In this document: piece by piece, positions 6,051-55,158 of the stretch | Position numbering within the stretch: position 1 is the stretch's first letter | Layout: each line of letters begins with the position of its first letter | NCBI GenBank assembly: GCA_022925895.1 | Contig: JAKSYS010000202.1 | Span: 1 to 64,000, forward strand | Reading direction: 5' to 3' | DNA: 64,000 bases | Origin: Fragilaria crotonensis | Lineage: Eukaryota; Bacillariophyta; Fragilariophyceae; Fragilariales; Fragilariaceae | The notes under the pieces: model-generated | What the model saw: only the letters and a program-made list of their open reading frames with translations | Database searches by the model: none | What the model was told of the DNA's origin: nothing | Position numbers and translations under genes: made by a program

Positions 6051-6059
6051 AACGGTTCT

Positions 6060-7434: not shown

Positions 7435-7749
7435 ATGGTCGAGATATCGGTTCGGTGTGGTCTTGTGTGAAAATTCCTTAATCACATTTAGGAGATTTGT
7501 TGCGAATCGGTCTTTGAGAGACTGATTCGTTCCGTGCCACGGTCATTTACTTATCCGTATGGCACGTCTATCGTAGTATTGCGGTCTTTCGGGTATGAGA
7601 ACACTCCCTACGCAATTTCTCATCAATTCCCGACGTAATCTGCTCAACATCGTTTCATCACATGCGGCCATTCTTAGCCATGATGAAATGATCAACCGGT
7701 GATCTCCATACTACCGATCGGATGGCGCCATTCATGTCATTGAGCCGTT

Positions 7750-7762
7750 GGGTCTGATAAAC
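7750..7762 (-). other. Putative primer-binding site of element A
   Basis: The 13-mer GGGTCTGATAAAC (+ strand) directly abuts the 5' LTR at 7763. The same 13-mer abuts the 5' LTR of B, E and H and of the unrelated family C. It reads like a tRNA anticodon arm with loop CTGATAA, suggesting half-tRNA priming as known for Drosophila copia. Confidence 0.6.
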
Positions 7763-7980
7763 TGTTAATCCTACAAGTAGATCATCCTTGCAGGAAAGCA
7801 TGTCTTGATTCAGTTATGAATTATCTAAAACATAGAAAAGTGAGCATTACCTTGTTCGGAGTCATCCTTCAATCCCGAGTCGTACTGTGCAGATGTAGTA
7901 CCGTATAATGGTACTTGATACTTGATACATGATTCATAGCATCCTGAATGATACAGTACCGGTAGCTTGTAATATCAACA
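7763..7980 (-). repeat. 5' LTR of element A
   Basis: 218 bp, reads as identical to 1555-1772. Followed at 7981 by the resumed gag of element H. Confidence 0.95.
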
Positions 7981-8775
7981 ACGTTGCCAGCTCCTCGCGG
8001 TGCAGATCGAGCAATGCTTCTGGCGATCGAGTCGAGGTCCGACTCTGTTGCAAGCATCAAGTCGTTCGGGGTTGAAAAACCCTGAGCAATCAGCCATGTA
8101 ACGGTCGGGGCATTAAAGCCGCATCGTTGGAGGGCAGCGTTCATGGTCGATATATCGGTTCGTGGTGGTCTTGTATGAAAGCTCCTAAAGAATCAAGCAA
8201 GAGTATACGAGGGTGAAAAACCGGGATGACCGAATCCACAAGAGTGGCAGCATTTATGCCGACCGCATAATGACTTGCCGAAATAATATTCAGGAGATTT
8301 GTTACGAATCGGTCTTTGGTAGACTGACTCGTTCCGTGCCACGGTCATTTACTTATCCGTACGACACGTCCATCTTAGTATTGCGGTCATTCAGGCGTGA
8401 GAACCCTCCCAACGCAATTTCTCATCAAGTCCCGACGTAATCTGCTCAACATCATTTCATCACATGTGGCCATTCTTAACCATGATGAAATGATCAACCG
8501 GTGATCTCCATTCAACCGATCGGATGGCGCCATTCATATCATTGAGCCGTTGGGTCTGATAAACTGTTAATCCTACAAGTATACCATCCTTGTAGAAAAG
8601 CATGTCTTGAATCAGTTATGAATTATCTAAAACATAGAAAAGTGAGCATTACCTTGTTCGGAGTCATCCCTCAATCCCGAGTCGTACTGTGCAGACGTAG
8701 TACCGTACAATGGTACTTGATACATGATTCATAGCATCCTGTATGATACAGTACCGGTAGCTTGCAATATCAACA
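7981..8775 (-). mobile_element. Element H: 5' LTR, leader and start of gag
   Basis: On the minus strand this holds the H LTR, a leader with the GGGTCTGATAAAC primer site (8552-8564) and the start of gag (MNAALQRCGFNAPTV at 8144). It is the same family as A, B and E but visibly diverged, so it is older. Its leader is long, like that of E; A and B share a shorter leader. The gag is interrupted by element A, and the element is otherwise truncated. Confidence 0.85.
8565..8775 (-). repeat. 5' LTR of element H
   Basis: 211 bp with TGTT...AACA ends. It differs from the A/B/E LTR by roughly ten substitutions and a short length difference in the ACTTGAT repeat, consistent with an older copy. Confidence 0.9.
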
Positions 8776-9133
8776 ATCCTCCTGCTCATCGTCTTCGTCA
8801 TCATCCTGCTCGTCGTCCTCGTTGACTTCGTTGTCTTCGTCATCCTCCTCCTCGTATTCAGACTCTAAGCTTTCCTCCTCGTTATTCTTGCAACAAGATG
8901 GCCATTCCTCTCTTCTTCGGAATAGGAACAAAAACTTGTCTGAGTCTCTGTTCGAAGTCCGAATCCCAACTGTGGGAGCAAAGATGCTCCCAACCTTGAT
9001 GAGGTAAATAGATACCAGCATATTGCCACGACCCTCTTCTGGTTCCCTCATCAGGAAGCCCATATCTGTGGTTTGAACATAAATCTGTGGTCATGCACCA
9101 AGAAAATATGTATTGACCGCATATATCTAACAA
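8776..9133 (-). pseudogene. Acidic hypothetical ORF cut by the H LTR
   Basis: Minus-strand frames from 9063 and 9133 overlap here. The 9063 frame ends in a long Glu/Asp/Gln-rich run (about 8776-8880) that then reads into the H LTR; the 9133 frame gives an unrelated product. No domain is recognised. The acidic run comes from a GAG/GAT/GAC-type low-complexity stretch, which reads as Ser-rich on the other strand, so coding status is uncertain. It may be the surviving half of a gene disrupted when H inserted. Confidence 0.3.
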
Positions 9134-9564: not shown

Positions 9565-9774
9565 ATGGCACCAAGCAGCACATCATCAGCATCTCAAAGT
9601 GGAGCCTTCACATGTTTCAATGTCAACTGCTATGCTACGTTCAAAACCGAACGAGGTCTTCGTCAACATTTATGGCGAAGTGCTCCATGTCGCGATTATA
9701 TGTCGGAACCAAGGCCTCTTGCCGCTAGCCTTGACGTAGTTCATGAGAGTACATGGTCCCGGCGCTTGGGATAC
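9565..9774 (+). pseudogene. KDZ/Plavaka-like transposase, 5' part with zinc finger
   Basis: The ATG at 9565 opens a frame whose residues 17-42 form a C-x4-C-x12-H-x6-C zinc finger. Such a finger is commonly placed at the N-terminus of KDZ/Plavaka-type transposases, where it would bind DNA. The frame runs to the insertion point of element C; the last four bases (9771-9774, ATAC) are the target-site duplication. At 16122 the repeated ATAC is followed by sequence that stays in the same frame (GVESSRLNPF, then the long transposase ORF). This is therefore the same gene, split by C. The zinc-finger call is direct; the transposase identity comes from the 3' part. Confidence 0.6.
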
Positions 9775-9953
9775 CAAGTAAAAAGAGCCATCGTAACTTA
9801 CAAGAAACAAAAAGATTAACGAAAGCTCAAAAGTAAAAACTATAAGTTCGTACATTATCCAGAAGTAGTATACATACATTCAGGCGCGTCATCGCTTCGT
9901 TGTCATCGGAATATTCTTGTGACATACTGTATTACTGTAGTACTATTTACTTG
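9775..9953 (-). repeat. 3' LTR of element C
   Basis: 179 bp, ends CAAGTAAA and TTTACTTG. Edges are fixed by the ATAC duplication on one side and the GGGGAC tract on the other. Confidence 0.9.
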
Positions 9954-9989
9954 GTCCCCTCGAAGGCAGACCTGTGCAGCGGCAGAGCT

Positions 9990-12900
9990 GACTTTGCACT
10001 AATACGTCCATGATCCGAACAGATGGTTTCGTGTCGTCATCGGCAAACGCTTGGTAAAGCAATCTGCAAGATTATCATGAGTGCGAATGTGCGCGAGTGA
10101 GATGACACCAGCCGCGACTGACCATCGGCAGTGGTGATATGCTACCGAAGAATGTTTCTTATTCAACGTCGACTCAACATTCGTTGTATTTTTAACGACG
10201 CTTTCGTTATCACAGAACACGTGTGTAGGTTCACCGCGTGGGAGTGGGACGCCAAAACAACGTAACTTGAAGCGCAGATGTTCGATTGCCTCGAGACATG
10301 CCTTGAGCGCAATAAATTCAGCAGAGAAGGTGCTTGTCTCTACGGTATGTTGTCGCTTGCTATACCACACGATGGGAGCTCGGTTGATGAATACGACATA
10401 CCCGGAATGCGAACGCCTGGTTACTTTATTGGCCGCATGTGAGGCGTCGACGAATGCCGTAGTAGTCACACTTCTCCCTCTTGGAACAGGCATCCGATGA
10501 GGTAACAATTCCTCGGCGTCGCGATACATTTCGGCAAAATCTTCTTTATTCGTGCGGAAGTCCCCATAGTCAATACGTGGCAACTCCGGAGACATATAGA
10601 GCGTAAGCTTCGGGTGCTTTTTAAGGAACGCGAATATGTGCAACGCCTGTTCCAAGTGTCCTTCTCGTGGACTTGCTTGGTATTGTGACAGGAGGGAAAC
10701 CTCAAGCAATATGTCAACTCGGCCAATCTCGGTGGCCCATCTTAACACACCAATCAACTCCTGGAAGTACGTCACATCCTCTTCATTTAATTCGTCCGTT
10801 ATATCCATCTCAGGCGAGAAAGTGATGTTCATAGGCGTATCAATATTTGTTGTCGGCAACCTTCTACCCGCTTTCTTGATTGCCTCTTCGACATTCTTGA
10901 CAGCAGCCTTTACGTAGTCTTGACTGGTAATCGTCCAACATTGGATTCCGTTGATAGACTTCTTCTGGAGCTTGGCACCGAGGTAAAACTCGGGTGTTTC
11001 AATCTTTCCATTTTTGAATTTAAACGTACCCTGTATCTCCTCGAGAATTGCGCGGGGATCACACGATACAGAAAGTATGTCATCCACATACATTAATACA
11101 TACTCATAGTAGGATTCACCATCGGCCTTTGTTGCCGCTCTCAACCATACGTCTGGATCGGCCATTGATGACTGAAAGCCCATCGAGGCCAGCTTCTCGG
11201 CCATATAGGACCGAAAACTAAAACTTGCTGACTTCAGGCCATATAATGCCTTGACGACTAGAAACACTTTTCCTTCTTCTGATCCAAACTCTGGTCCAGC
11301 GACCATCCAACACTTTTCCTTATTGGGGGCGGTTAAAAATGCATTTTGAACGTCAGCGCCCAATATGTCGAGGTCATTTAAAGCTGCAATCGTCAATAGG
11401 ATGCGGACAGAGTCACGCGAAACAACAGTGCTATAAGTCACCGAAGCTGGTGCGCCCGTCTTGTGTCCGTCAGCGCAATAACGCGCCTTTCGTCGAAAGT
11501 TCTCGCCGAGTTTGACATCAAAAACAAGGTGACCAGTGATCTGCGTGTATCCCAATTAATGTGCTTGGATCTCCATCAAATTCTTCAAATGCAATCCTGA
11601 CGTTCTGCATCTCCAGTTTGATGGCGTCCAACCATAATGTGTTGCCATTTTCCTTGTCAATCTCCATTGCTTCCCTGATATTCTTGGGAATTCGTATCCC
11701 ATATTTGTGAGTCCGTGCCCAATATTTTGACTTCACCTTTGCAAGATTCTCTTCTGTTTCCTCAGCACGTATGGTACCCACCATGCAAACGCTGGTTCGT
11801 CCTCAATCTTATTCTCTTTGCGTATATCGCTAGCTCAACCGGATAAGACTCTTTCAAATCCTTCATAGATACCCAATCGCTGGAGCCATCGCGCCACTCA
11901 ACAAGGAGTTCCCAGCCACGCGTTGTGGTCTTACGTCGACTGACGCCATAAGAATTAACATAAGTCCCTGACCTTTGGGAATGGCCTCGGGCAACACTCG
12001 ATAGTCAATGATTCCTGACAGCATCATCTGCCGTCGTCCTTCCTCGTCAACCTGGGCTATCAGATTCTCCGCTATCAGATTGGCCGTCAATTCCTCGACG
12101 TGTCCATCCACGTATTCGACTTCATACTTCCGAGAGTCTAGCAATGGATTGGAATGGGCTGTACCAACTGGTGTGCCATCTTCATCGCGTACACGTTTAC
12201 GCACGGTCGCATGCACCAGCTCGCCTTCAGCACCTCTAGTCATTGCCATTTCCATGCCAACATATGGATCGGAAGTGACCTCCGTATTCTTGGCAAACTC
12301 TCGTCTGCATGCTTCAATTGAGCGTCATCAATAACACGAGTGAAATCGTCGTAGAACGATGAGTCTTCGTTTTCAGGATCAATCACATGACTCGGATGCA
12401 CGTCGCGCAGAGTCCTAGTCAAGTCGGCAGACGGCGTCTCAAATACAGATTGTAAACGTTCCTCGTAGTCGGCCATTCGCTTCTGCATTTCGTCCGTTGC
12501 TTTCTCGTCGTTTGTCATCCGTTGTACTGTCGTTGCAGAGATGGGAATGCCACTCTCGGCAGCAGCCAATACGACATGAGTCTCCCAATGCGGTGAGACA
12601 CCCCAAGCCATCGCGCTACCTCCACCGCTCCAAGTCCTGCGTTACCTTTGAAGAGGACCCAATCATAGAAGTCAAAGTCCACATATTCTGAGATATCGGG
12701 AGTGTCGCCAGTGATAATTTCTAACGGTGTCCGCCCTTCGGCGTACTTTGACATGTTTGCACAAACATTATCAGTCTCGCACACCCACGCAAAGCCGTAG
12801 TCCCATAGGCGCGGAGGCACTTTCTTCTTGAGCATCAATCGATACCACCTTTTCTTTATCTCATGTATCCCCTGTTCCGCTGGGTTCTCGTTCGGTCTCC

Positions 12901-14100
12901 TCGGTCCAGACACGTGATACTTGATCTCGTAACGGCGGATGGCGTCCATGAAGCGCGTTTTTGGTCCGGTCTGTACCGACGCTCCATCGAAAGTAAGACG
13001 CTCTGGGGCTCCATAATCACTTATAAATTGGGTTAGTGCGTCCCCCACGCTATTACCGTCTACCTTTTGTAATGGGTAGCAGGCTTTGAATCCACACTTG
13101 TGGGAAAACACTTGCGAGCCGACATTGCCTCGCAACGACCTGACCTTGCCATATGCCGTGTCGGTTGCAAATTTTCCATTCAATCGCTTCACTGAGAATA
13201 CTCTATCTGCCCGGTATCGACGGCTGATAGGAAGGATAGCTGACCTTACTCCCCTTTGTGTCGTTACTTTCAGTGTTCGTTGAGCACGAGGGATACTAAT
13301 CCCGAACTTTTCAGCCAATGAATGAGCAGTGACTTTGACGTGTCGCTCTTCGCTCACGAACGTGCGACGTCCTGGGGCATCGGTATGGTCGAACACGGTA
13401 TCGACTTGTGCATTCACTCGTTGCTGTTTTGCGTTGAGTCGTTCGTTAAGCCGTACAAGCGACGGATCAATTGAATCCAACATGGCATCGTCCGAATTTG
13501 CATCGGCATATTCGTACCGATCCTCGAATGTTGAATCAACAGTTGCAATCTGACGTTTCCATGGTGGATGAACTGTACTTCCGCCTTGATGCGTAGCTTG
13601 TAACATGGCAACATCGCTCGGGTTCCAAGGCGAAGCACTAGTCATCTGGACGTGCTCGCAGGTCTCTAATTCCAACGACGTTGGCACACGAGTCGTAAAC
13701 AAGAGTTTCGTGCCGACAGGGCGCAGAGGAATATGCAAGTCGTTGTTGACTTCGACAGATAAAGGCCGTGCTTGGTCAAAGGGGTTGTCCCAAAATGGGA
13801 TCCCATAAGCACGAACCTGGTTGGGATTGATCAGTGTATGATCGAGCTTCGCGCCATAATAGAGGGCTTCGTTAAACACCAAGATGTACGTTTTACCTGT
13901 GACCGCATCGTCATAAGCGGTGGCACCCGAGACGATCGGCACGTTTTCGATGGGCTGGATACTGGTGTCGTATGTAGACATCAGCAGTTCTGAACGTGGG
14001 GTTGAGAACAACGAAGTTGCGACCTAGACAACATGTGTCAGCGTTAGTGTCACACTCGTTCTCAGCTGTCGTGTTGGCTGGTGGATCCGCCCAAGACTTC
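9990..14100 (-). pseudogene. Element C pol region
   Basis: On the minus strand, in order: a protease-like block (CDTNADTCC context, about 14030); an integrase core with FSTD-like, TFDGAS and NPAEQGIHE contexts between about 13160 and 12860; RT with GADVQNAFL (about 11365) and MYVDDIL (about 11085); RNase H with AFVDASHAA (about 10440) and FCDNESVV (about 10210). The stop is near 9999. The order is typical of copia. The region is broken. Confidence 0.88.
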
Positions 14101-15698
14101 GTTCCGGTCGTCTGGAGATGTCGAGTAGTGTGGACAGCAGCGGTACGACGAGCATCCCGATTACTGGCTTGTTCGTTGCGTCCGCCCATAATGCTCGTAC
14201 CCGTTGTGATCTGGCTGACTTGTGACCGGACTGAAACCGTGTCAGTTGGCGGTTGTGCCGTCGAACCGGTTTGTTGTTGCAACTCCTGAATTTGACTGCG
14301 AAGCTCTTGTATTTCGCTGCGACTACCGCTACGTCCGCGATTTTGATTGTAGGCAGCCCGCTCTCGTTTCAACGTATCGCGGTCTTCCTGTTTCATCTTC
14401 ATGTAAACATGCCTTGGGAAGTTGAAGGAGGCGTGGTATTCGATTTGAGTACCATCAGTGAGCGTGATCATTCGGCTATCATTTCTTTGCCGTCCGCCAC
14501 GTCCTCGTCCTCCCTGTCGTCCGCCTTTTCCTCCGCGTCCGAAACCGGCTCGTCCTTTAGATCCGCGCCCGCCAGTCGAAACCTCGTTTACCTGTCGTCT
14601 AGCACGGTTTTGGACGACTCCCATTTGGGGCGGGTGCTTCTGGTTGACCATGTTGCGGAAGAGAGACAAAGACTGTTCGTACGTGATCGACATTGGAACA
14701 CGCGACAACTCTATCTCTAGTTGCGCCTTCGTGGGCGTCAAGAAATCGGCCTTGATTTTGTCTACCAACATTCGGATCTTCATAGAATCCGAATGGACAA
14801 TCCGACCTTCCCTTTTGACGTATGCATTGAATGCCCGAGTGAGTCGCTTCTCGAACTCGGACCACCACATATGTGGTGGTTTTTCGCCTCCATAAAAGAG
14901 TGTCTTGAGGACTTCGTCAGCCTCACGAATGTCGATAGCATGAATTCCAACTCCCTCATAATGCTCTACTAATCGTTTGAATGCCTCACGTCCATCATTG
15001 GGGCGTGTCAATCCCTGTATCTTTGCTTCGGCAGTATCATTGCCAGTAACAAAGTTGAGCAAGAACGTATGCACCTGGACCGTGTCAATGGCATATGCAT
15101 TGCCTGCCAAGGGTGCGGATGCAACGTAGTCGTCCAAGAAGTCTTCATTGGCAGTTTCGCGGTCCGCCTCATCTTTTTCTCTACAGACGTATTTGAGTGG
15201 GATACCGTCACGCCCAGGAATGGAGCGGAGGTAATTGAGGAATGTTGGTTTCCAATCCTCCCACTTGGTTGCTTCTTTAAACTTCTCAGGTTTTGCGGCC
15301 TCGGACAAAGTCTTCGAGTCATTTAAGAACTTCTCATGAGTCCTATAACGGCGAATAAGGTCACCAACAAGCTCAATAGGAAAGGGCGATTCAGTCGGAT
15401 CACGTCCAAGGCGCAACTCGTCGCGTGTCCACTGGACAAAGGCTTTGATATTTTTGCGGATTCCTGGACGGATACGAATCTGTCCTTGTGCAACGGTCAA
15501 ATCGGAGTATGTCTTAAAGTGTTCATCTAGCTCCTTGAAAGTGATGTCCAAGCACGAAGTGAATTGGTCACCAAAAATGTCCGAAGCAAGGCGCTGTGCC
15601 TGCGTCTCGTCCATGAAGACGCCGTCGTGGTCTACTCCGCAGGTGACCATAGCATCTACAACGGTGAAACCGTCGAACATCATCCTGTCGTCAGCCAT
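14000..15698 (-). pseudogene. Element C gag region
   Basis: It opens MADDRMMFDGFTV at 15698. The C-terminal half has an Arg/Gly-rich stretch (about 14480-14590), then a Gln-rich part leading into the protease block. The RGG-type stretch may bind RNA in place of a zinc knuckle, which is not seen. Confidence 0.8.
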
Positions 15699-15931
15699 GC
15701 TTATGCAGTTCGCTGTAATATTGAAGGAACGGATAAGACCGTGTCAGATCATCGTCATCGTATAGATTCGTTCGTACCAACCTGCGAGGTGGCCGACTCT
15801 CATGACCGAAGTCAGAGTATGCAATGCCGAAGCACGTGTAGCCATGACCGAAGTCAGGATTAGCAATGCCTTTCAGCACGCGGTCTTAACGCTCATAGCG
15901 ATCACTGTTATGCCGTCTTTGTTTACGTCTT

Positions 15932-15944
15932 GGGTCTGATAAAC
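15932..15944 (-). other. Putative primer-binding site of element C
   Basis: GGGTCTGATAAAC (+ strand) abuts the LTR at 15945. It is the same 13-mer used by family A/B/E/H although the LTRs are unrelated. Confidence 0.6.
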
Positions 15945-16121
15945 CAAGTAAAAGAGCCATCGTAACTTACAAGAAACAAAAGATTAACGAAAGCTCAAAA
16001 GTAAAAACTATAAGTTCGTACATTATCCAGAAGTAGTATACATACATTCAGGCGCGTCATCGCTTCGTCGTCATCGGAATATTCTTGTGACATACTGTAT
16101 TACTGTAGTACTATTTACTTG
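15945..16121 (-). repeat. 5' LTR of element C
   Basis: 177 bp, nearly identical to 9775-9953, followed by the ATAC duplication at 16122. Confidence 0.9.
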
Positions 16122-18858
16122 ATACGGCGTTGAATCTTCACGTCTAAATCCTTTTATGAGTGCAGATCCTCCATCGTATGAGCCTTACGAAGTTTTTGAC
16201 TACTCGGCTACTACTTGTAATTTTGACGCAGATGATGGCATTCATGAACAGGAGGTTGAAATGAACCAGAACTTGTCTACAAGAACAGGCATCGGTGACA
16301 TTGCTATATCTTGCCCAGTTTTTCATGCCATGATGGAACGCCTTCAAGCGGGTGATCGCCATGCAATCATGGTATTGCATCATGATGTTGAACATCGAAA
16401 TATTGTGAATCTCCTCAAGCTTTTGGAGGATGCCCAATGTCCTGACTACATGTTGCAGAAGGTACTGCAATGGGCATACAATGCTAAGTTAGAGGGCTTT
16501 GATTTCAACCCAAAGCTACAACACGGAAAGCCAACATCCAGTGGATGTACAAAGCTTTGGAACACTCACACAGAGGACTTCCTAAGGTGCTGACAGCGAA
16601 TCTTGAAGATCACGACAAGGCTCAAGATATTATTTGCTTTGACTTTGTACCTGCATTATTGTCAATGCTGCAAGACGAGTCATTGATGGTGATGGAAAAT
16701 CTTGTCATCAATAAGGAGTATCCAATGTCAATGTACATACCAACTGACAGCAAAGTTGGCGAGGCAAACAGTGGTTCACGTTATCGAATTGTACCAACAA
16801 CTTGCACAAGGTAAGGATCAGCTGCTTGTACCAATTATAATGTACCTTGATGGCACCGTCATTGACAGCAAGGGGCATATTGATATCTGTCCTGTGTCAT
16901 TCACAACATCTCTTTCACTGAGAAAGTTCGTCGTGATGTAAAAGCATGGCGTCTGCTGGGCTATGTTCCAGACCTGAACCGTGGGCGCTCTGCAGCAATG
17001 AATAGCTTTGCAAATGCATGTGCTGAAGAGAAAGGTCGCACTACTCGTAATTTCCATAAGGTCATGGATGTGATGATGGCAGGTTGGGTGAAGTGTCAAG
17101 CTGGTTTAGATGATCGTTTAAAACACGTACCACTGAAACTTGGTGACAGGTGGTTTGTTGTCGAACTTGTTTGCCCCTGTTATTTGTCATCAACGATGGC
17201 AAACAAGGTGACCAACTTTGTTGCCGAATCAATGGCCATCACAGCAGTGCATTGCGTCACCATCGTTCATGTGATTGCTTGTATGAAGATCTAGATAATC
17301 CTGATGTTGAGTGCACATTCCTATCGACTGAGACAATCAACTACGCATCTCAACATGGCTCACAAGAGGAGCTCCGCCAGCTTTCAATTTACAGATGTGA
17401 CAATGCCTTCAATCGTGTTCAGATGGGGCAAAACCCCACGGCATCTTCATGTGTGCAGTTATTGATGATGCATACAATTCAACATGGCATCATCATGTAT
17501 GTTCTCGATTGCTTCAAAAAGCCTCAGTGTTCAGTCACTGGCGACGCTTGACAAAATGGCTTTTATATTTGACACAACGTGCTGTCAGAGTATTCGCACC
17601 TCTTTCCCCAGAACTGATTTTTCCAGAGGAATAACAAACCTCACCATGGTGGAATGCTCTGAACAGTCAGGGCATTGTTCCTCATTTCTTTCTTCATTAT
17701 GCAAGCGGAAGGTTGGGAAGTCTTCGATGAGCATTTTCTTCAATTGGATGCCGTGTTGGGGACTATGGAAAGCCTTTTATGCTTTGAGGCCTGGCTTGAT
17801 CAGTACACCTTTTGGGATATTGAGATCCAGACGGAGAGGCATCACAAGCTGAAGCAGCAATTGCTTCTCTGATGAATCTCATCACCACACATCTTCCGAG
17901 ACACGCTGGCAATGGATGGAAACTGTCAAAATTTCACGAGATCAAGCACATCGTACGATTTATTGCTGCGTTTGGAGCACCGCGTGGTTACAATGCCTCC
18001 GTCCTGAGGAACATCACAAGGCACACCAAACGTCCTGGTAGGCGTGCACAGAATGTGGACACCATTGACCAGCAGTGTGGCCAAAGAATTGCGGACCACT
18101 CGTGATTGATACTATGCACGCGATGTTCCAAGAACGACCTGTTTTGAAGACATCATCACAGCATACTAACCGTAGTCAATTACTGGCTGCTGACGATGTC
18201 CAAGATCCTCTGACGAGTGAGTCAGGGTCTGGAACGTCATATTACGTAAGGTCATACATTGACCCTATGGATGATAATCGATTGTGTCGTGATGTAATCT
18301 TTGACACTCAGACCAGAGACATTGAACTGGAAGATAATCTTGCACTGTTCATTTTGCAGACTTACAGTGACTCGATCTCGACGACAATGGGGTGGGCGGT
18401 ATCTGGTGCCGCACAGAGTACCATAAGTACAACATTGAAACAAAGGAGGAGATGGTTTCTGTTCGCTGTCATCCCAACTTCAGGGAAAGGGTATTCCTGG
18501 TATGATTGGGCTCTCATCCGCTATGAAGATGATGAGAAATGAGATGGAGTACCCATCTCGCATTGTGAGTTGCATACCACGCCACAGTTGCTTTGGTGGA
18601 ATTGAAACCACCACGTTTGACCTCATTATTCAATGTTGTGGCAAACCAACTGGGCGTGAGTCCTTCCTGTTCACTGAGTGGACATTCGAGAAGGAGTTTC
18701 ATGTTGTCTCCTCAGAAGCCATTGTTGGCTTGTGTTTTGTCCCAAGCAACCCTGACCTCGCTGACTCTGATGTCCTTGTTGTAACAGATAGGGACAAATG
18801 GGCATCAATGTTCTACGATTCAGCAATGGTTGATTACACCATCAATGGTCAAAATTAA
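16122..18858 (+). pseudogene. KDZ/Plavaka-like transposase, 3' part (degenerate)
   Basis: This continues the gene begun at 9565. Recognisable blocks in order: FDFVPALLSML (about 16640), LVPIIMYLDGTVID (about 16828-16870), RLLGYVPDLNRG (about 16950-16985), FVINDGKQGDQL (about 17180-17215), PRHAGNGWKLSKFHE (about 17893-17940), FGAPRGYN (about 17970-17995), KRPGRRAQ, SWYDWALIRYED (about 18496-18530) and a C-terminal beta-rich tail ending at 18858. The acidic YLDGT block and the GNGWKLSKFHE / FGAPR blocks resemble those of KDZ/Plavaka-type DNA transposases. About nine frame changes or stops interrupt it, so it is dead. The superfamily is recalled from motif style; a profile search would decide between KDZ and Plavaka. 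Confidence 0.62.
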
Positions 18859-18870
18859 GTAGAAACAATA

Positions 18871-20811
18871 TTAAACCATCAGTAACTGGGACATTCCATA
18901 CATGATGATCCGTGTCTTTGGGGCAAAGAACGTACCATAGATATTTCCACTCCGCGAACCTGTCATGGATGTACCATGCCTGATCAGGCGGCCATCCCAT
19001 CCAATCAGGACACCATCAGACAATTTGATGGCAATTCCGTTGTAGACCCGATCCGATCCTGGGAATTTCCCCTTCATGTTCGGAAGGACAAAGTACCAAT
19101 CCTCAGTTGTCCCAGGGTGATCTTCAGTCCAGATTGTAAACCCCTGACTGGCATCGTTCACATCGTAATGTGTTGAATTTGCCAAATTAATTGACAAGTC
19201 CATGCTGTGCGTAACGCGGCACATGCCTCCGTCCATGCCACCAACATGCTTCATTTCAGAATCATTTTCCAAGTCCTGCATCACTCTGAGGGCAGCCGGG
19301 ATAGTCACTGATGCAAGCTTTGCCGCAGCTTGCACAGCCTTCAACAATACCGGGGCAGCATCCACAGTTGATGATGTCACATATGGCACCTTGTTCCAGC
19401 ATTTTGTGATGCGGCTTCCAATTGGATGCATTGATCCGAGGTCTCCATTGCCAGCCCTTGCTCCCGTGCTGCTCTTCTGTTTTCTCACCAAGTTGCAATG
19501 CCTGTTGATGTCGGTCAGAAGGTCCTCACAACCTGATCCAACAACGTTTGGGAGGTACCGGATTTGAACCACAGAACACCGATGGAAAGCAACTTCGCCC
19601 GCATTTGCGGGTACAGTGACATCAACGTGCAAGTCAAGCTCACCATATTTGATTGGATTGATAACAAATGTCGTTAACGGGTCAATGGTCTTGTGCAGAA
19701 ATCCCGGTGCATAATGGCGACCTCCACGTTTGGCTGACCTTGATCGCGAGAACGCATCTTGGAATGTCTCAGCTCGAAACTTATGATCAGCACTCAACAA
19801 CTCATCCTTCTCACCCACAACATAGTCAGGAGGAAGTCCAGGTCCTTCCTCATCCATCAGTTGCTTCGTGCAGTGAATAGATCTCACAAGTGATCTTGGC
19901 ATCACCCCCATGATCGCATTGGGAATTGGCAAGAGGTTTGTGGCGGAGCGCCGAATAGTCCACTTCCAAATGGAACACTTATCAGCATTCGCAAGGTGTG
20001 AAACATAAGATCCATCACCGAAGAAGTTACCATGAGAATCATGCTGAAGTCGTAACCAGTTTATGTCCATTGGGACATGCGAATTAGGACCCCAGCTGAT
20101 CGTGGCGCCTCTCCTGTGGCAATAGAATATGCCAGCTTGGGAAGGAGGACAATGCATGCGGTAGAAGTTATCGCTGTTATTCTTCCCTGAAGGGCGAGAA
20201 GAAAAAGCATTTTCATCTCTAACAGCGATTGCCAAATTGACAGCATCAACATCATCAAATAGACAGACATGCACGGGACTGTCACAGGCATGGGCGTCAT
20301 CTTTCCTTTTCCTTTTCAAATCCATAGGACCACTTCTCGAGAGAACACAATCCATGACGATCAGGTCGAGATCGAATGACTTTCCATGACTATACATTTC
20401 ATCAGGATGTTTGCAGCGCTTGAGCATGACATACTCAGTACCAAACACATGTTTCAGGGACGAGTCAACCCAATTGATGGGAGTCTTGCAAATCTTCTCG
20501 TCACAAAATGCCGATGGACCTAGAGCTGACGCCGCCGCCACAACTGCAGGTGGTATTGGAACAGACGCGGCGTTGCCCTTCTTCCGCTTTTGCTTCTGTT
20601 TTCGAGAGAGGTGGTCGAAAATTGTTGAACATGACCATGAAAGGAGCAACAGACTGCAAAGGCAGACACTTGGCTATTACATTTGCAACTTGAGTGTGAC
20701 TTGCCATAGAAAGTGATGGATGCTCTCGAAGCAATCCAATCCCCAAACCTTTCGTTTCCTTGATTATCTTCCTCGCAGCCTTGACTTCTTTCCTCGTTCT
20801 CCCTGTCCCCT
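18871..20811 (-). pseudogene. 2OG-Fe(II) oxygenase-like protein, 3' part
   Basis: The long minus-strand ORF (from 20649) ends 12 bp from the transposase stop, in tail-to-tail arrangement. Near the C-terminus sit THYDVND (HxD at 19162-19170), then WYFVLPN, a G-I-A-I-K-L-S-D-G strand, and GRLIRHGTSM with the distal His at 18976-18978, with an Arg eight residues later. This HxD...H...R order matches double-stranded beta-helix 2OG-Fe(II) dioxygenases, including TET/JBP-type enzymes that some KDZ transposons carry. The 5' portion (20811 to about 20620) is in another frame, so about one frameshift lies near 20620-20650. A basic KQKQKRKKG stretch (about 20590) may be a nuclear signal. The protein could instead be an inactive DSBH protein. 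Element B separates it from its N-terminal part. Confidence 0.5.
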
Positions 20812-21029
20812 TGTTGATATTACAAGCTACCGGTACTGTATCATTCAGGATGCTATGAATCATGTATCAAGTATCAAGTACCATTATACGGTACTACATC
20901 TGCACAGTACGACTCGGGATTGAAGGATGACTCCGAACAAGGTAATGCTCACTTTTCTATGTTTTAGATAATTCATAACTGAATCAAGACATGCTTTCCT
21001 GCAAGGATGATCTACTTGTAGGATTAACA
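20812..21029 (+). repeat. 5' LTR of element B
   Basis: 218 bp, TGTTGATAT...GGATTAACA, identical by eye to 27037-27254. Confidence 0.95.
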
Positions 21030-21042
21030 GTTTATCAGACCC
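21030..21042 (+). other. Putative primer-binding site of element B
   Basis: GTTTATCAGACCC immediately follows the 5' LTR. Its complement reads as a tRNA anticodon arm with loop CTGATAA. Confidence 0.6.
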
Positions 21043-21355
21043 AACGGCTCAATGACATGAATGGCGCCATCCGATCGGTAGTATGGAGATCACCGGTTGA
21101 TCATTTCATCATGGCTAAGAATGGCCGCATGTGATGAAACGATGTTGAGCAGATTACGTCGGGAATTGATGAGAAATTGCGTAGGGAGTGTTCTCATACC
21201 CGAAAGACCGCAATACTACGATAGACGTGCCATACGGATAAGTAAATGACCGTGGCACGGAACGAATCAGTCTCTCAAAGACCGATTCGCAACAAATCTC
21301 CTAAATGTGATTAAGGAATTTTCACACAAGACCACACCGAACCGATATCTCGACC

Positions 21356-22730
21356 ATGAACGCTGCCCTCCAACGATGCGGCTTTAACGCCCCGACTGTC
21401 ACGTGGTTGATTGCTCAGGGATTTGCAACCCCGAATGACTTGATGCTCGCAACTGAGTCGGATCTCGACTCGATTGCCAGGAGTGTTGCTAGATCTGCAC
21501 CGCGAGGAGCAGGCAACGTTACGATGCCATTCATCGCAGTGAAGAACTTGAAAGGCTTCCGTTTCTGGGCGGATGAGCGCAAGCGGACCGGGTTCGAAGC
21601 GAACCCCGAAAGTTTCACAGCTGACAAGGTTCCTGAGTTCACGGCCAAGTGCCAAGAATACCAGGAACAGAAGGAGGCAGCAAAGACGAAGATGCATCCA
21701 AGCCTGACAGTCTTAAGAAGTTGGTCAACTGGGCATTGTGGAATGAGTCCTTCCAGAATTACCTTCGTCAAATCCTTAGTGCTGCGAAGATCCCACTCGT
21801 TTACCTCACCAGGGACGAAAGGAAGCGCCAGAGAATGTTCTTGATCCAGCGGACTTTGGAAGTCCAATGGAGTACCTTATTGAAGCGACGGTACTCGAGG
21901 GACGACATTACGAATTGGATAACCCTCGATTCTATCGGGAATTGAAGACATTTGTCGTAAACGGAGAAGGGTGGTCATACATCAAGAAATTCGAGAGGTC
22001 GCAGGACGGTCGGAAGGCGTACTTGGCATTGAAGACGCAGTGTGAAGGCACCGCGTCCAAGATCACACGTAAGAACAAAGCCTACGCGTCGATCGCGAAC
22101 GCGTCCTACAGTGGGTCGCGTCGCCAGTATAAATTCCAAGATTTTATCAATGTCCACCAGACCGCTCACAATGAAATCCTTGATTGTGATCCAACCGAGG
22201 CCGTCCCGAATCCAAGAAAGTTGCTGATTTTCTCAAGGGAATTACCGATCCGAAATTGGAATCTGCCGTCTCAGTGGTGCTTGGCGATCCCAAGCTGCTG
22301 AACAATTTCCAGGCATGTCAGCAATACCTGTCGACGACCGTGGAAAACAGGGCAACCCTCGAGAGAAGTAAGGAAAGGAACATTTCGGGCGTGAAGAGCG
22401 GTGAGAAGACGGATAAGACGGCGAAGGCAGGAAGTTGCCAAAGGGTTTTAAGTTAGAGAATAAATATTACCCGCCAAAGATCTTCCGACTTCTGAGCCAG
22501 GAGCAAAAGACCAGCTTAAGGAGTGGGGAGACAAGAAAGGCAAGAGATCCGTGGCCGCTTTAAAGAAACAAATCAAGGAGGAGTTGAAGAACGAGATGAA
22601 GAAACTGGCAAAGGGAAACGACAATGATGGCGATGATGACCATGAGTCAAGCGCAGATGAAGCGGCCGGGAAGGAATTCGGTCGCGGCGCTCACAAGAAG
22701 AAGCAGAAGCTGGATAAGGCCTGACAATGC
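21356..22730 (+). pseudogene. Element B gag region
   Basis: It starts at the ATG of MNAALQRCGFNAPTV (21356), about 325 bp after the LTR. It has the same gag as A and E, with a charged Lys/Glu-rich C-terminal part. The region is broken. Confidence 0.88.
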
Positions 22731-22742
22731 AGAACCGTTGCG

Positions 22743-25700
22743 ATGGTTTCGCGGGAGGTATACTCAGTGGATTACAATGCAATACACGGAGAGTGTCATC
22801 GTTCGGGTCGGTGCGAGATGGACTCTCACGCCGACACATGCGTGGCAGGAAGTAATTGCGTGGTTCTCGAGTATACCGGGAGATCAGCTGAGGTCGAGGC
22901 TTATTCGCCTGATTACCCGTCGAAGCAGATTCCTATCGCAACGGTTGCAACGGCCTACGATTGTCCGACTTCCGGGGCCACGTATGTGATAATCATTAAC
23001 GAAGCTCTTTACTTCGGAGACTCCTTACCATTTTCGTTACTTTCCCCTAACCAGCTCCGGGACAACGATGTCCACGTCGACGAACGACACAGGCAACATG
23101 CACCTGACTCGATATTCGGTATTCTCGTTCCGTCCGAACCCCTACGAATCCCTTTACCCTCGAAGGAGTTGTTGCCGGCTTTGATTCGAGACCCCCAACC
23201 CAAGACGAGCTTGATAATACTGCCCTGCATGTCGAACTCACCTCCGACGTTGAGTGGATTCCCCACACCTTCGCGCTCTCGCTCGCGGAGGAGGATGTGT
23301 TGGACTCCGAAGACGAAGAGGAGATTACGAACTTGCGAGCAAGGCGCTTGAAGGTCCTACACTCCAAGGCAACGAAACAGAAGATCAAGAGTTGCATGCA
23401 GGTTCTTGCAGCGAGCCAGTTCCCCTTCGAAATGCAAATCGCAAACGAAGTAAATCTGCTGAATCAGACCGACCCGATACTGCGAAGGGTCGCAGCACTT
23501 ACGACGACAGCGGATGCGAGCTCGGAGGAGATTGGCATTGCGGCGATACGAACTGGAGATGTGACTTCCGATGTAACCCCAGAAAATGTGGCACGACGCT
23601 GGATGGTTGGATTAGAGACGGCAAAGAACTCCTTGAAGGTGACCACCCAACAAGGAATCCGGTCGATACCGAATCCAGCGACGCGACGTTTTAAAACTCA
23701 GATGGCACATCTGCGCTATCCAAGGTTGAGGGGGATGTTTTACGCCGACATAATGGAACCGAAGATCAAATCAATTGATTCGCAACGATATGCTCACATT
23801 ATTGGGAATGGCCGGGGATACACGAAGGCTTACCCGATGGAGCGTAAGAACGAGTCAATCTATGCGCTAGATGATTTTGTCAAGAAAGTGGGAATTCCAG
23901 AAGTATTGTTGTGCGATAACGACGCCACAATGGAAGGATGGGGCGAGTGGAAGAAGAGGATCCGGAAGTATTCAATTGATCCGAAGTACACGGAACCCTA
24001 TTCACCGTTTCAGAACAAGGCTGAATTGGACATCAGAGAGTTGAAGAGGATGATCCGAAGATTCCAAGACAAGACGCGATCACCAAGAAGACTCTGGAAT
24101 TATCTCGTCAACCTTTGCGCAAGGATCAGATCCTTCGTTGCGGGGACACATCCGGATCTACAAGGACGCTCTGCCTTCGAACAGGTCCATGGGTGGACAC
24201 CAGATATTTCGCTCTACGTTATGCATGGTTGGTACGAAGTTATTTCTTACCTCGACAATGACAACGAGCGGAAGTTGGCATGCTGGTTAGGGCCAGCAGA
24301 AGATTATGGTGGCGGGGACGCAGCGTTCCTGTTACCGAAGTCGGCAAAGCCAATCGTGAGGAGCACGTTCTGGGCCCTAACACCTGATGAACGTGCAGAT
24401 CGAAGGGAGGAGATCGCGGAATTGTTGGAATCGATAGAAGAGAAGATAGGGATAAGCGGACAAACGAGGAGGTGGCGGAAGAGCTTGGTGAAAATCAGTT
24501 TCCCTGGTTGACATCTTCGGGGACTTGAATGACGCAACGGAGGACGGAGGAGAATTCCGACGCTCCGACGCTGATGATTATACCCCGGAGGCTTTTGATC
24601 AGTACTTAACTGCTGAGATAGTAACCGACCGCGGCGGAGATATCCTTCGCGGCACCGTGAAAAGCCGAAAAGAGATCATGACGGAAAGCCAATTGATCGT
24701 CAAACCCAAATCCTTTATTGGATTCCCGCGAATACCTTGTGTGTTTCGAGGACGGGACGGAGGAGACATACACTGCGAATCTAATTGCTGAGTGTTTATA
24801 CTGCAAATAGATGACGATGGTCGACGCTTGCAAGTGATGCAGGAGATCGTTGACCACGAAAAGAGTCATAGTGCGCTACGAGAGGACGAGGCGTACTACT
24901 CTACCAAGACTGGACCGAAACCAAAGAGAACGACAAAGGGCTGGCGCCTATTAGTCGAATGGAAAGACGGTTCCAGTACTTGGGTACCGCTGGCAGATTT
25001 AAAGGACTCTTACCCAGTTCAAGTTGCCGACTACGCCGTTACAAACAACCTGTCAAACGAACCAGCGTTCCGATGGTGGGTTCCATTTGTACTCAAGAAA
25101 CGAGAAAGGATTCTAAAAAAGGTCAAGTCGAAATATTGGTCGGTTTCACACAAATACGGATTAGAACTCCCGAAAAGTGTCGCCCATGCGTTAGCGATCG
25201 ACAAGAGAACGGGAACGGATTTCTGGACGAAGGCGATCGAAAAAGAGATTCGGAACGTTTTCCTGCATTCGAGTTTATCGAAGACGACGACACAAAAGTT
25301 CCACCTGGGTACGAGTTCGTTGATACATATTTTGTCTTCGACATCAAAATGGACCTTACTAGAAAGGCCAGATTGGTAGCGCGAGGCAATATGACCGAGG
25401 CAACGAAGGAACAAACGTTTGCGTCTGTCGTGAGCAGAGATACGGTGAGACTCTTCTTCCTCTTGGCCGCTCTCAACGATTTAGACCTCTTGTCGTGTGA
25501 TATTCAAAATGCTTACCTGGCGGCACCGAATAAGGAAAAGGTGTGGACTAAGTTTACTGATCAATTAGGACCTGAGTACAATGGTAAAAGAGCTATAATC
25601 GCGAAAGCTCTCTATGGCTTAAGATCGAGCGGAAGATCGTTTCGCGACTACTTGGCTAAGAATTTAAGGGAACTGGGCTTCGCGTCGTCGAAAGCTGACC

Positions 25701-26854
25701 CTGATCTGTGGATGAAAGCGGCGGTCAAACCGAACGGGGACAAAGTCTACGAGTACGTCATATCGTACGTGGACGACTTGATTTTTCAAGGAATAGATCC
25801 GGAGGGCTTTATGGATGCCCTGGGACAGCGTTTTACCTTGAAGCCCGGGAGCATTAAAGAACCAGATACTTATTTGGGCGTTGACATAAAGAAATTCCGT
25901 ATCCCAGATTCTGACGAGCCCGATAAGGTGCGGTGGGCGTTCGAGTCAACTTCATACGTGAAGAAGGCGATCGCCGACCTGGAAAAGGAACTTGAAGATG
26001 CCGATCTCAGACTGTTGCCAAATGCAAAGACTCCGCTGGCAAGTGGATACCGGCCTGAGTTAGACCTTTCAGCGGAGTTGGGGAGCAAACAATTGAACTA
26101 CTATCAAGGTTTGATTGGCGTCCTCAGATGGATTTGCGAAATTGGGAGGATTGATGTTTTGATGCCGGTGTCGTTAATGTCGCGGTACTTGGTATCGGCA
26201 CGACAAGGACATTTAGAACAAGTCTTCCATATTTTTGCATACTTAAAGCATCATCCGAGATCGACAATGGTGTTCGACGATACGATCCCGACATTCCGAG
26301 GTGAGCGATTCGTCAAATGTGACTGGTCCGAGTTCTACCCCGACGCAGCCGAAGCAATACCCGAAAACATGCCGACGCCACGTGGAAAGGATGTCACAAT
26401 GTCATGTTTCGTGGATGCTGACCACGCAGGGTGTAGAGAGACAAGGAGGTCACATTCAGGGATCTTAATATTCGTTAATCGAGCGCCGATACTTTGGTTT
26501 TCCAAGAGGCAGAATACGGTCGAGGCGTCTACGTATGGTTCAGAGTTACTTGCAATGCGACTATCGATTGAGATGATAGAGGGACTACGTTACAAACTGC
26601 GGATGATGGGTGTTCCGCTAACCGAGGAATGCTCCGTGTTTTGTGATAATTCGGCAGTTGTGACTAATTCCCGACCTGAATCGACACTCAAGAAGAAGCA
26701 CGCTGCAATTAACTTTCACCGCGTACGCGAAGCGATTGCTGCCGGGACCATCAGGGTGGCAAAAGAAAACACACAGACGAACTTGGCAGATATCTTGACA
26801 AAGTTAATGCCAGGACCGAAGATGAAGGAGTTGTTGCATAACATACTCTGGTAA
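22743..26854 (+). pseudogene. Element B pol region (protease, integrase, RT, RNase H)
   Basis: A protease-like DSHADT motif is at about 22820. The integrase core spans about 23740-24050, with Asp in YADIM, Asp in CDNDAT and Glu in KAELD. RT landmarks are CDIQNAYL (about 25495) and SYVDDL (about 25760). RNase H has CFVDADHAG (about 26405), TVEASTYGSEL (about 26515) and FCDNSAVV (about 26640), ending at the stop near 26854. The RT-RNase H part is one of the longest open stretches of this family in the window. Confidence 0.92.
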
Positions 26855-27036
26855 TCGACGACCAACACCGGGGACACGAATTGGGTAGTCGCGATATAAT
26901 GGTAACTGTCCATCGAAAACAGTAGGTGACCGTCGCAGGGTTATATATGTTAACGACGTAGCCGGGGCCTCTGTCGATCGGTTCAGGAAGTGTGATTCGC
27001 CTCTGATTCAGGAACTTAATTCAGAGTCGCGGGGAC

Positions 27037-27254
27037 TGTTGATATTACAAGCTACCGGTACTGTATCATTCAGGATGCTATGAATCATGTATCAAGTATC
27101 AAGTACCATTATACGGTACTACATCTGCACAGTACGACTCGGGATTGAAGGATGACTCCGAACAAGGTAATGCTCACTTTTCTATGTTTTAGATAATTCA
27201 TAACTGAATCAAGACATGCTTTCCTGCAAGGATGATCTACTTGTAGGATTAACA
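27037..27254 (+). repeat. 3' LTR of element B
   Basis: 218 bp, directly preceded by GGGGAC (27031-27036) and identical by eye to the 5' LTR. Confidence 0.95.
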
Positions 27255-27850
27255 CCCTGATCAGGAAAATTGCTGCCGACAGCGGCATCAGCTTCCGTGG
27301 TACCGCCAAGTGTGGTAATAGGCACAGACATGGTGTTTTCCGTCAACGGAATGGTCTGTCGATTGTTCACTCTTGCCAAAATAATGGCACGGGAGAGCTC
27401 ACCTGGCAGAGTGCGTTGAAATGGTCCATGAGGGCGAGCACGAATTGGGCGTTCACGCCAATTGTTTTCCGCCTTCCCACTCTTTTTTTTCTTCTGCCGT
27501 GGTTTGGTGCTTTCGGATGAAGATGGCAACGTGGTCACAGCATCATCAACAGCACTAGTCGATGAACCAGCGTTCTTCAATCCACCACTCACATTTGCCA
27601 TCAAGACAGCCTTAGTAGACACAACCTTCAACTCAATCTTCACTTTAACTTTGAGCTCAACCATCATACCATTGTCCTTCCTCAACGAATCAGACCTTCT
27701 TGCCAAAGTTGAGGTCTTTCCCTTCTTGAATAGCCGAACATGGTAGCAGTTTTGAGAAAACTCCGCCTCGTCTTCCGACGATGAATCCTCAAACCATTCC
27801 TTTGTCAACGTCGAACATGAAGTCGTTGAGCACAAAGTCTCTGCCATCAT
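27255..27850 (-). pseudogene. 2OG-Fe(II) oxygenase-like protein, 5' part
   Basis: This minus-strand ORF is the N-terminal part of the gene whose C-terminal part is 18871-20811. At the insertion point of B, removing one CCCT copy leaves the frame running from NFPDQG into TGRTRKEVKAARK, so B interrupted an open gene. The segment has an acidic patch (DSSSEDEAEF, about 27795), a Lys-rich KPRQKKKKSGK run (about 27480), probably a nuclear signal, and no recognised domain. The frame is open back to 27985, but residues before the MMAETL start (27850) overlap the tandem repeat, so the internal Met at 27850 is preferred. Confidence 0.5.
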
Positions 27851-27941
27851 AGACAACTGGAGCCAATCAAAGTGAATGGGCCTCACAAAATTTGTCGTCA
27901 ACGGTGGAGCAAGGAAGCCAACAGCGAGCAACACGCGAACA

Positions 27942-28510
27942 CGACCGGTCGTTGTCGTAACCAACAGCCAGCCAGGAACAACCAAATCGACGTCAGCTGA
28001 GCTTTATAGATGTAAACGCAAAGCTGAACGCGAAATTGGAAGCCAGCAATTGGCGTGGATCCAGACAATGACAGTCTCGCAATATCTGTTATCAGTGGCG
28101 GAGCGACGAGAATTCTGCAACGTGACAGCCACCGAAGGACAAATATGCAACGACCTGTCGTCGTCGTTGTCACCAACAGCCAGCCGTGAACAACCAAATT
28201 GACGTCAGCTGAGCTTTATAGATGTAAACGCAAAGCTGAACGCGAAATTGAAGCCAGCAATCGGCGTGGATCAAGACAATGACAGTCTCGCAATATCTGT
28301 TATCAGTGGCGGAGCGATGAGAAACCTGCAACGTCGTGACAGCCAACAATGAACAAATATGCAACGACCTGTCGCCATCGTTGTCACCAACAGCCAGCCG
28401 TGAACAACCAAATCGACGTCAGCTGAGCTTTATAGATGTAAACGCAAAGCTGAACGCAAAATGGAAGCCAGTGACCGGTGTGGATCAAGACAACGACAGT
28501 GTTGCAAAAT
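27942..28510. repeat. Tandem array, about 210 bp units, 2.7 copies
   Basis: Units begin with CGACC(G/T)GTCG at 27942, 28151 and 28365 (spacing 209 and 214 bp); the third is partial and fades out near 28510. Each unit contains a GACGTCAGCTGAGC box and the text TTTATAGATGTAAACGC. The array sits just upstream of the oxygenase-like gene and could be its promoter region or the subterminal repeats of the DNA transposon. Confidence 0.8.
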
Positions 28511-29566
28511 CTGTTGCTCGTTGATGGTGGAGCTTCCAAAACATCAATGCGATACGAAAGGCAATGAGTGTGACAAGGTTGTCGGGGTCAGGAGGCCTAA
28601 CAGTGAGTGTGTTGTAGCTGAGAAAATTTGACAAAAGAGACAACCGAATCGCCCAATACATTCGTTGTAGAAAACATACCAAAAACTTGTGCATCACGTT
28701 GCGAGCAGGAATGCATACAAAGCTTCACTATGCTAAGCATAATTGCAAATTGAACATATAAGTACACTAATATTTACTGATATGATTCACATGTAGAATG
28801 TGACAGTACTTTCGGTGCTTGTTTTTTATTGAGAAAAATTTGTCCATCCTGCGAAGTATTCAGTACTACTAGGATGTCGTCTTGTACCATTGAATCGCCA
28901 GTATAGACACTATGAATGTTCATAGCGATACTGCGAGCGGTAAATTGACTCGCTACTTCGCGTAAACGGCTACTTTGTCTAAGAAAGTACATGTCGGTGA
29001 GTGTATGCTACATTAACACCTGTTTAATATACCAAGAATTACATACAATGTATAATGAACATTATTAATTCCAAACAACCACATTTTTATTAAATGCATA
29101 TGATTATATATGCGCATATCAATTCATTTAGCGAGAAATGTATGTTATATATATGAATATAAGCATAACATGCAACCACATTTTAATTCAACGCATATGA
29201 TTATGTATGCGCATATCGATTCATTTAGCAAGAAATGTATGTTATACATACGGATATATGTATAATATGCATATTCAAATGACAAAAAACGAAAATTCAA
29301 AACATCTACATATTCATGCATATTTAAACTGATCATTTGAAGAAGTATATTGAATGTGAATACTAATGTAACGCCTGTAAATCATCTTCCCCAAGGATAT
29401 GCAGATTTTTGAAACGCATGTGAATAACTTTGTCAAGACTTCGAAATATTGAACAAGTCTTGTGCTCGCACGAAAACAAAACAGAACACATGTCAGCCGA
29501 GTGATCTTGCCATTTGCTGGCTTTTGTTCTCGTTTAAAGAACACACCCAAAGATCAGGGTAGTCTC
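28511..29566. other. AT-rich non-coding stretch
   Basis: No supported gene is present. It contains the duplicated unit at 29076-29269 and otherwise AT-rich sequence. The right-hand end of the DNA-transposon-like unit probably lies somewhere near its start. Confidence 0.5.
29076..29269. repeat. Direct duplication of a 97 bp AT-rich unit
   Basis: Unit 1 (29076-29172) and unit 2 (29173-29269) both begin CAACCACATTTT and contain GCATATGATTAT, GCGCATATC and ATTCATTTAGC in the same order. They differ at roughly fifteen positions. Confidence 0.75.
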
Positions 29567-31166: not shown

Positions 31167-31431
31167 AAATCAACCGTACAATAAATATACCAAACCGTTT
31201 CTACACACACCCCCCCCTAAAAACTCGCGGAATAAATTTCGCGGAATAAATTGAAAATATTAGCTGCGACCAATTTGTCCAAAGTATTTGTACATAAATA
31301 TCCACAACATTTCTATATAAAGATGTCAATTTTGTAAATTAATACTTATAACTTTCTAAGTAAAGAGAACAGAATCTGTCTCAAAAAACCAAAGAAATAA
31401 TTAGAATGAAATATAAATAAATATTTAGAAA
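31167..31431. other. Short AT-rich spacer between two convergent genes
   Basis: No coding sequence is seen. It separates the RGG-rich gene (+) from the second transposase (-). Confidence 0.5.
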
Positions 31432-37101: not shown

Positions 37102-37208
37102 TACACAACAATGACTGCACATCAAGTGATATCATTGCGACTAAATTGCTTGGACCACCTCCTTTTGAAGTGCACCTAGAAACAGGCTATTTGGTCTAGT
37201 TTATCATT

Positions 37209-55128: not shown

Positions 55129-55158
55129 CCGACGTGGGGCAGAGCCGTCCTGCCCTAG

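Follow-up and report, generated by a model that had tools for sequence, protein, structure and literature searches.

A candidate Plavaka/EnSpm-like transposon with a tail-to-tail accessory gene, split by two copia elements, in the diatom Fragilaria crotonensis

Two tail-to-tail genes interrupted by copia elements

We analysed a 64,000-nucleotide stretch of DNA from the diatom Fragilaria crotonensis (contig JAKSYS010000202.1 of assembly GCA_022925895.1, positions 1 to 64,000 of the forward strand; hereafter the window), in which two convergent genes, a plus-strand gene termed T1 and a minus-strand gene, are each interrupted by a copia-type long terminal repeat (LTR) element. Our best explanation, held tentatively and at slightly less than an even chance, is that the two genes are the remnant of a cut-and-paste transposon of the CMCT clade (Plavaka/EnSpm-like), with a gene for a DDE transposase that bears a zinc finger at its N-terminus and, tail to tail with it, one accessory gene, whose product on balance somewhat probably ends in an oxygenase domain. 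The transposase would have excised and reinserted the element; two copia elements, C and B, later inserted and split both genes. We read the locus as CMCT-like because T1 is homologous to a second transposase in the window (T2) and the collinear order of candidate residues matches that in PMC12730594; we read it as a two-gene unit because the empty sites of the copia elements are in frame, the two stops lie 12 bp apart, and T2 likewise has a tail-to-tail partner. The locus is laid out as follows.

9565 to 9774, plus strand: 5' piece of T1, with Met start and C2HC finger, up to the insertion point of C (two sub-threshold Pfam zinc-finger matches, E=0.095 and 0.15)
9775 to 16121, minus strand: copia-type LTR element C, inserted in T1 (RVT_2, LTR alignment, in-frame join of the flanks)
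16126 to 18858, plus strand: remainder of T1, legible only with about 10 frame changes (homology to T2; residue roles assigned by eye)
18871 to 20811, minus strand: remainder of the minus-strand gene, through its middle to the C-terminus, where the candidate oxygenase region lies
20812 to 27254, plus strand: copia-type LTR element B, which interrupts the minus-strand gene (identical LTRs, RVT_2, target duplication)
27259 to 27850, minus strand: N-terminal portion of the minus-strand gene, continuing in frame into the part from 20811 downwards when B is removed; candidate Met at 27850
27960 to 28515, no strand: tandem array of a 214-bp unit in 2.6 copies, upstream of the minus-strand gene

Element C is bounded by LTRs at 9775-9953 (179 bp) and 15945-16121 (177 bp), which differ by 1 substitution and two one-base gaps; it carries an RVT_2 domain on the minus strand and is flanked by the target duplication ATAC (9771-9774 and 16122-16125). 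The LTRs of B (20812-21029 and 27037-27254, 218 bp each) are identical, and B also has RVT_2 and a target duplication, CCCT, at 20808-20811 and 27255-27258. When the flanks of C were joined at ATAC, the T1 frame continued (...STWSRRLGY/GVESSRLNPF..., the stroke marking the join), and joining the flanks of B at CCCT likewise restored the frame of the minus-strand gene (...GSNFPDQ/GTGRTRKEV...). Since both joins read on in frame, it is well supported that neither gene was broken at the insertion place before the copia elements arrived. After removal of C and B, a C2HC-finger protein on the plus strand and a minus-strand protein of approximately 840 residues remain. A sequence-only reading of the same DNA had described a locus split twice by copia elements, with a C2HC-finger gene and a minus-strand gene ending 12 bp apart and a tandem array beyond; the LTRs, RVT_2 domains, duplications and continuous frames, the finger at 9613-9690, the convergent stops at 18858 and 18871, and the array all bear this out.

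Four-base target duplications were found in three of the four copia elements examined (B, C and D, the last at 57399-63929 with CTTA/CTTA); element A (1555-7980) had no matching target duplication at its flanks. Five bases are usual for copia elements. As expected of Ty1/copia LTR retrotransposons, A, B, C and D each have LTRs. Pieces of an older copia copy (approximately 88-95% identical) lie either side of A, at 1455-1554 and 7981-8782, and A seems to be nested in it.

The plus-strand protein is a transposase

The N-terminal finger of T1 has the spacing C-x4-C-x12-H-x6-C (9613-9690). Further along, roles assigned by eye from two sequences, T1 and T2, give as candidate catalytic or zinc-binding residues a D in MYLDGT (16840-16857), a D in VINDGKQGD (from 17186), HRSC (from 17261), MMH (from 17465), HEIKH (within 17929-17949) and an E in RPEEHHK (18000-18020). 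By eye, the resulting order D, D, HxxC, H, HxxxH, E matches the order given for the CMCT clade in section 3.1.5 of PMC12730594. Candidates for the acidic triad D, D, E were picked out by the same inspection, the E lying in a different frame from its surroundings. T2 and its partner, which had no place in the sequence-only reading, are located at approximately 31.4-33.9 kb and just below.

31432 to 33858, minus strand: T2, a second, diverged transposase, in pieces; upper end approximate
29568 to 31166, plus strand: gene convergent with T2 (its tail-to-tail partner), spread over three overlapping frames

What survives of T2 shows the collinear order D, C(2)C, H, H(3)H, E, as GDTKGHD...CRAC (33613-33699), EILH (within 32818-32910), HLALH (within 32165-32182) and the E in YAESAH (32096-32116), with WCDHAM at 31651-31680. 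The N-terminal portion that would hold the first D was not located; this end was probably cut by a copia fragment. Homology between T1 and T2 was detected by BLASTP (E=1e-7, 21% identity over T1 residues 428-714), and the joined Smith-Waterman score was 101, whereas 300 shuffles averaged 36.3 and peaked at 52. Taken piece by piece, three of the five aligned pieces stand out (shuffles of 300 scoring as high: P1, 0; P2, 0; P5, 3) and two do not (P34, 248; P6, 201); the pieces were chosen by eye before scoring, so that these statistics are optimistic. Between the second D and the E, HEIKH in T1 aligns with HLALH in T2, corresponding to the H(3-4)H motif, and the C(2)C motif reads CRAC in T2.

Several results count against the assignment. 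The C(2)C motif reads HRSC in T1, the first Cys being replaced by His. The read-through T1 matched no Pfam family at E<=10, and the T1 and T2 pieces gave only sub-cutoff matches to unrelated families. Pfam holds both KDZ and Plavaka models. Searches of T1 and the minus-strand protein against PHROGs and PDB sequences returned nothing convincing, the lowest E value (0.0082) being that of a 32-residue stretch of T1 against a designed helical repeat protein. On the combined evidence the plus-strand protein is a transposase, and its residue order fits a predicted CMCT-clade (Plavaka/EnSpm-like) type.

The minus-strand protein may end in an oxygenase domain

With B removed, the minus-strand gene can be followed from its candidate Met (27850) as far as the stop at 18871, apart from one further frame break near 20.6 kb. 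It contains a 600-residue open stretch, far longer than expected by chance: the longest stop-free run in 20 order-2 Markov sequences of 64 kb was 366. The candidate oxygenase region is at the C-terminus and comprises STHYDVNDASQG (19141-19176), WYFVLPN (19078-19098) and GWDGRLIRH (18976-19002), with HxD...H at open reading frame (ORF) residues 502 and 566 and a candidate site that reads HYD. Judged by eye, HYD...WYFVLPN...IKLSDGVLIGWDGRLIRHG reads like the closing strands of a 2-oxoglutarate oxygenase, and the longer run around the last HxD, HYDVNDASQGFTIWTE...WYFVLPN...GIAIKLSDGVLIGWDGRLIRHGTS...YGTFF, resembles the metal-binding and closing strands of such enzymes; this is likewise a visual judgement and not the result of a tool.

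The motif itself carries no weight. HxD followed by H after 40-90 residues arose in 1563 of 2000 shuffles of the minus-strand protein, and for this reason HxD...H alone is worth nothing as a sign of an oxygenase; the protein has three HxD motifs, each with a His at that spacing. No Pfam family was matched at E<=10, the best match among PDB sequences was unconvincing (E=0.17), and PHROGs gave two weak matches, with E=0.097 for the C-terminal domain and E=2.4 for the N-terminal part. Two single-sequence AlphaFold2 (AF2) models had a mean predicted local distance difference test (pLDDT) score of 32.1 and 32.2, too low to use, and Foldseek with the first of these low-confidence models found no match at E<=0.001. 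The candidate site, HYD, also lacks the HxE hallmark of the PE type. These results count against our preferred explanation, and the label 'oxygenase-like', with its suggested kinship to TET/JBP, given to the gene in the sequence-only reading finds no backing in them; the Pfam profile search proposed there yielded no model at cutoff for either protein.

A first alternative keeps the same two-gene, CMCT/Plavaka-like element but gives the minus-strand protein another fold and an ordinary accessory role, DNA-binding or structural, with HxD...H a coincidence. We regard this as distinctly possible, if rather doubtful. The chance-level occurrence of the motif and the lack of a Pfam family at E<=10 or of a convincing PDB sequence speak for it, as does the partner of T2, which is likewise devoid of a recognisable domain. 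It accounts less well for the C-terminal run, which by eye is compatible with the late strands of a double-stranded beta-helix and where the low-quality AF2 models also place strands, albeit at a pLDDT of approximately 50 or less. Overall, we judge it somewhat likelier than the contrary that the accessory protein ends in a putative Fe(II)/2-oxoglutarate oxygenase domain. Such an enzyme might oxidise methylated bases on the element and so blunt silencing by the host, by analogy with what has been proposed for fungal TET+ transposons.

The partner of T2 is convergent with it, with 265 bp between the two stops, and gave no Pfam match. When it was compared with the minus-strand gene there was no clear resemblance (200 shuffles for each of its three pieces, of which 83, 4 and 72 reached the observed score), a further point against an oxygenase-bearing unit. 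Since the partner of T2 differs, a transposase of the T1/T2 sort does not need this oxygenase-like partner. The recurrence of the tail-to-tail layout with a changed partner is compatible with a transposon lineage in which accessory genes are exchangeable. The sequence-only reading had suggested that the two genes moved together, and named their independent occurrence as a counter-indication; the presence in the window of a distant T1 relative (21% identity over the aligned part) with another partner is a weak instance of this.

Ends, copies and the integrity of the unit

We infer that the two genes form one mobile unit. Three approaches to the flanking stretches gave no convincing terminal inverted repeat (TIR) with a target duplication. 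In one approach, one of three comparisons with shuffled sequence stood out, with just 5 of 100 shuffles scoring as high, though the match was of a low-complexity, TCCTCC type; in another, a control stretch (30000-31760) scored above the true flank. A scan for Plavaka/CMCT-type termini (TGT..ACA, CATCA..TGATG or CAC..GTG with a target-site duplication (TSD) of 2-3 bp) gave a best CAC pair of 11/16 among 264 pairs and a best TGT pair of 13/16 among 1064 pairs, the latter of low complexity and with no TSD; controls reached 12/16, and the ends may have been lost or may lie beyond the scanned stretches. The older copia copy has an edge at 8782, directly beside the left flank of the unit, so that the true left end of the unit may be on the far side of this copy. 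A search of the window turned up no second copy of either the minus-strand gene or the gene pair, and no relatives were confirmed in viral, prokaryotic, phage and plasmid sequence collections, which say little about a eukaryotic element. The failure to find ends for the unit or a second copy in the window counts against a single unit.

Frame breaks were assessed against the copia elements. The copies at 1555-7980 (A), 20812-27254 (B) and 57399-63929 (D) are near-identical, and their differences are almost all gaps of one to three bases. Between B and D, which measure 6.4-6.5 kb each, there are 17 gaps of 1-2 bases, one 93-nt insertion and no substitutions at all, or approximately 1.3 short gaps per kb per copy; A differs from B by 5 substitutions and 21 gaps, and from D by 5 substitutions and 24 gaps including the 93-nt one. 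The 93-nt stretch, which is missing from A and B, lies approximately 0.5 kb into D. Because near-identical copies differ by short indels and by hardly any substitutions, frame breaks in this DNA appear to be in part uncorrected long-read error. A codon model trained on eight ORFs of the window, parts of B and C included, placed 10 frame changes in 2736 bp of T1 (at a frame penalty of 6) and no in-frame stop; at least two further breaks were seen by eye. The same model gave 14 changes in 5451 bp for A, 13 in 5521 for B, 11 in 5461 for D and 8 in 5741 for C, all fewer per base than in T1. The break rate of T1 exceeds the gap rate between copia copies and therefore real decay may add to error; decay of T1 on top of read error is possible. 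We did not accept T1 as a pseudogene without qualification, the near-identical copia copies showing indels that look like read error. In the minus-strand gene the model placed 2 frame breaks in 1941 bp and 0 in 626 bp, of which the one near 20.59 kb was accepted and the one near 18.99 kb was taken as an artefact of the model near the gene end. The minus-strand gene thus has fewer breaks than T1, a contrast that is suggestive.

This contrast bears on a second alternative, namely that the minus-strand gene lies outside the transposon, as a host gene or part of another repeat, and ends 12 bp from the transposase by accident. We consider this improbable. No termini enclosing both genes were found, and the frame-break counts look as if the two genes were under different constraint; read errors, however, can explain part of that difference, and T2 has the same tail-to-tail layout. 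Furthermore, the Pfam families above cutoff in the 20 window ORFs scanned were all retroelement families, although a 381-aa ORF at 37200-38345 may be a host gene.

The third alternative, a Kyakuja-Dileera-Zisupton (KDZ) transposon with a TET/JBP gene as in basidiomycetes, is highly improbable: it shares with the locus only the general idea of a transposase beside an oxygenase, and although KDZ transposons have been reported in green algae (in Chlamydomonas, according to the part of PMC8226300 drawn on here), the residue order fits CMCT, which PMC12730594 keeps apart from KDZ in its section 3.1.5, the read-through T1 has no Pfam match of any kind, and no 7-8 bp target duplication was present among the 25 listed of 91 TIR-like pairs. 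The description 'KDZ/Plavaka-like' in the sequence-only reading accordingly survives in its Plavaka half, by CMCT residue order; its KDZ half is the poorer fit by the same measure, and neither is backed by a Pfam model at cutoff.

Relation to known transposons

According to PMC12730594, in the parts drawn on here, TET/JBP genes occur in eleven lineages of fungal DNA transposons, Plavaka and EnSpm among them, and help in escaping silencing has been proposed as their role. The published CMCT clade comprises EnSpm, Plavaka and Transib, and section 3.1.5 calls for a correction of the older view that put Plavaka close to KDZ. The fungal TET+ Plavaka (PlavakaB) and TET+ EnSpm elements described there (Kojima 2025, PMC12730594) resemble the present locus, as read by eye, in the order D, D, C(2)C, H(3-4)H, E and in a second gene that is held there, and proposed here, to encode an Fe/2-oxoglutarate oxygenase. 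In those elements, however, the termini and TSDs are known and the fold is backed by HHpred and AlphaFold, whereas here no termini were found and the oxygenase rests on a motif. As given in the abstract and section 3.4 of that paper, the enzymes of fungal TET+ Plavaka are of the PE type, with the hallmark HxE and not HxD. Since the Plavaka-borne type has HxE and the site here has HxD, even a true oxygenase at this locus would not be of the PE type. The same source describes fungal TET- Plavaka families with a transposase and no oxygenase, to which T2 is comparable; T2 however has a partner gene of its own at 29568-31166.

The scope of Kojima 2025 is fungi, and diatoms, stramenopiles and algae are unmentioned there, whereas the DNA analysed here is from a diatom. 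Beyond fungi, the giant repeats flanked by Plavaka in Amoebidium (PMC11244446) also combine a Plavaka transposase with cargo genes; unlike the present locus, they form clusters of up to 50 kb with tyrosine recombinases, and the part of that paper drawn on here mentions no dioxygenase. Among the matches listed in the open-licence literature, no title or abstract described an oxygenase-bearing transposon from an alga or stramenopile. As for the KDZ transposons with TET/JBP genes that Iyer et al. are said to have reported in 2014, they embody the same pairing of transposase and oxygenase in a different transposase superfamily, a label unsupported at this locus.

A bolder version of our preferred explanation is that this is a non-fungal, probably algal, CMCT/Plavaka-like transposon with a DNA-base oxygenase of its own, gained independently of the fungal TET+ elements, and that, with sister elements in the same genome carrying other tail-to-tail partners, the partner slot works as an exchangeable anti-silencing cassette; we think this unlikely, though worth stating. 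Were the accessory protein a DNA oxygenase, DNA transposons carrying demethylase-like enzymes would no longer be peculiar to fungi, and there would be a microalgal system in which to test whether transposons undo their own methylation. With a real oxygenase the locus would be a variant of the published fungal transposase-oxygenase pairing; otherwise what remains is a diverged transposon of a rather ordinary kind, accompanied by an accessory gene of no recognised family, though its description would still be of use as that of a CMCT-like transposon family whose partner genes vary. In either case the locus is a caution on how frame breaks are read from uncorrected long-read sequence.

Other features of the window

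RVT_2 was found in four stretches of the window (B, C and two further ones), together with one gypsy-type polymerase, and in the 20 ORFs scanned only retroelement families exceeded the Pfam cutoff. Since the window is dense in LTR elements, it is eukaryotic. Between the two transposase units, at 29076-29271, there are two A+T-rich tandem copies of 97 bp with a near-palindromic ATATGCGCATAT. The 381-aa ORF at 37200-38345 (plus strand) is unbroken, has no Pfam family above cutoff and is possibly a host gene amid the repeats. Finally, a copia-type element on the minus strand at 50858-56559 retains long ORFs (899, 565 and 466 aa), unlike the more broken elements.

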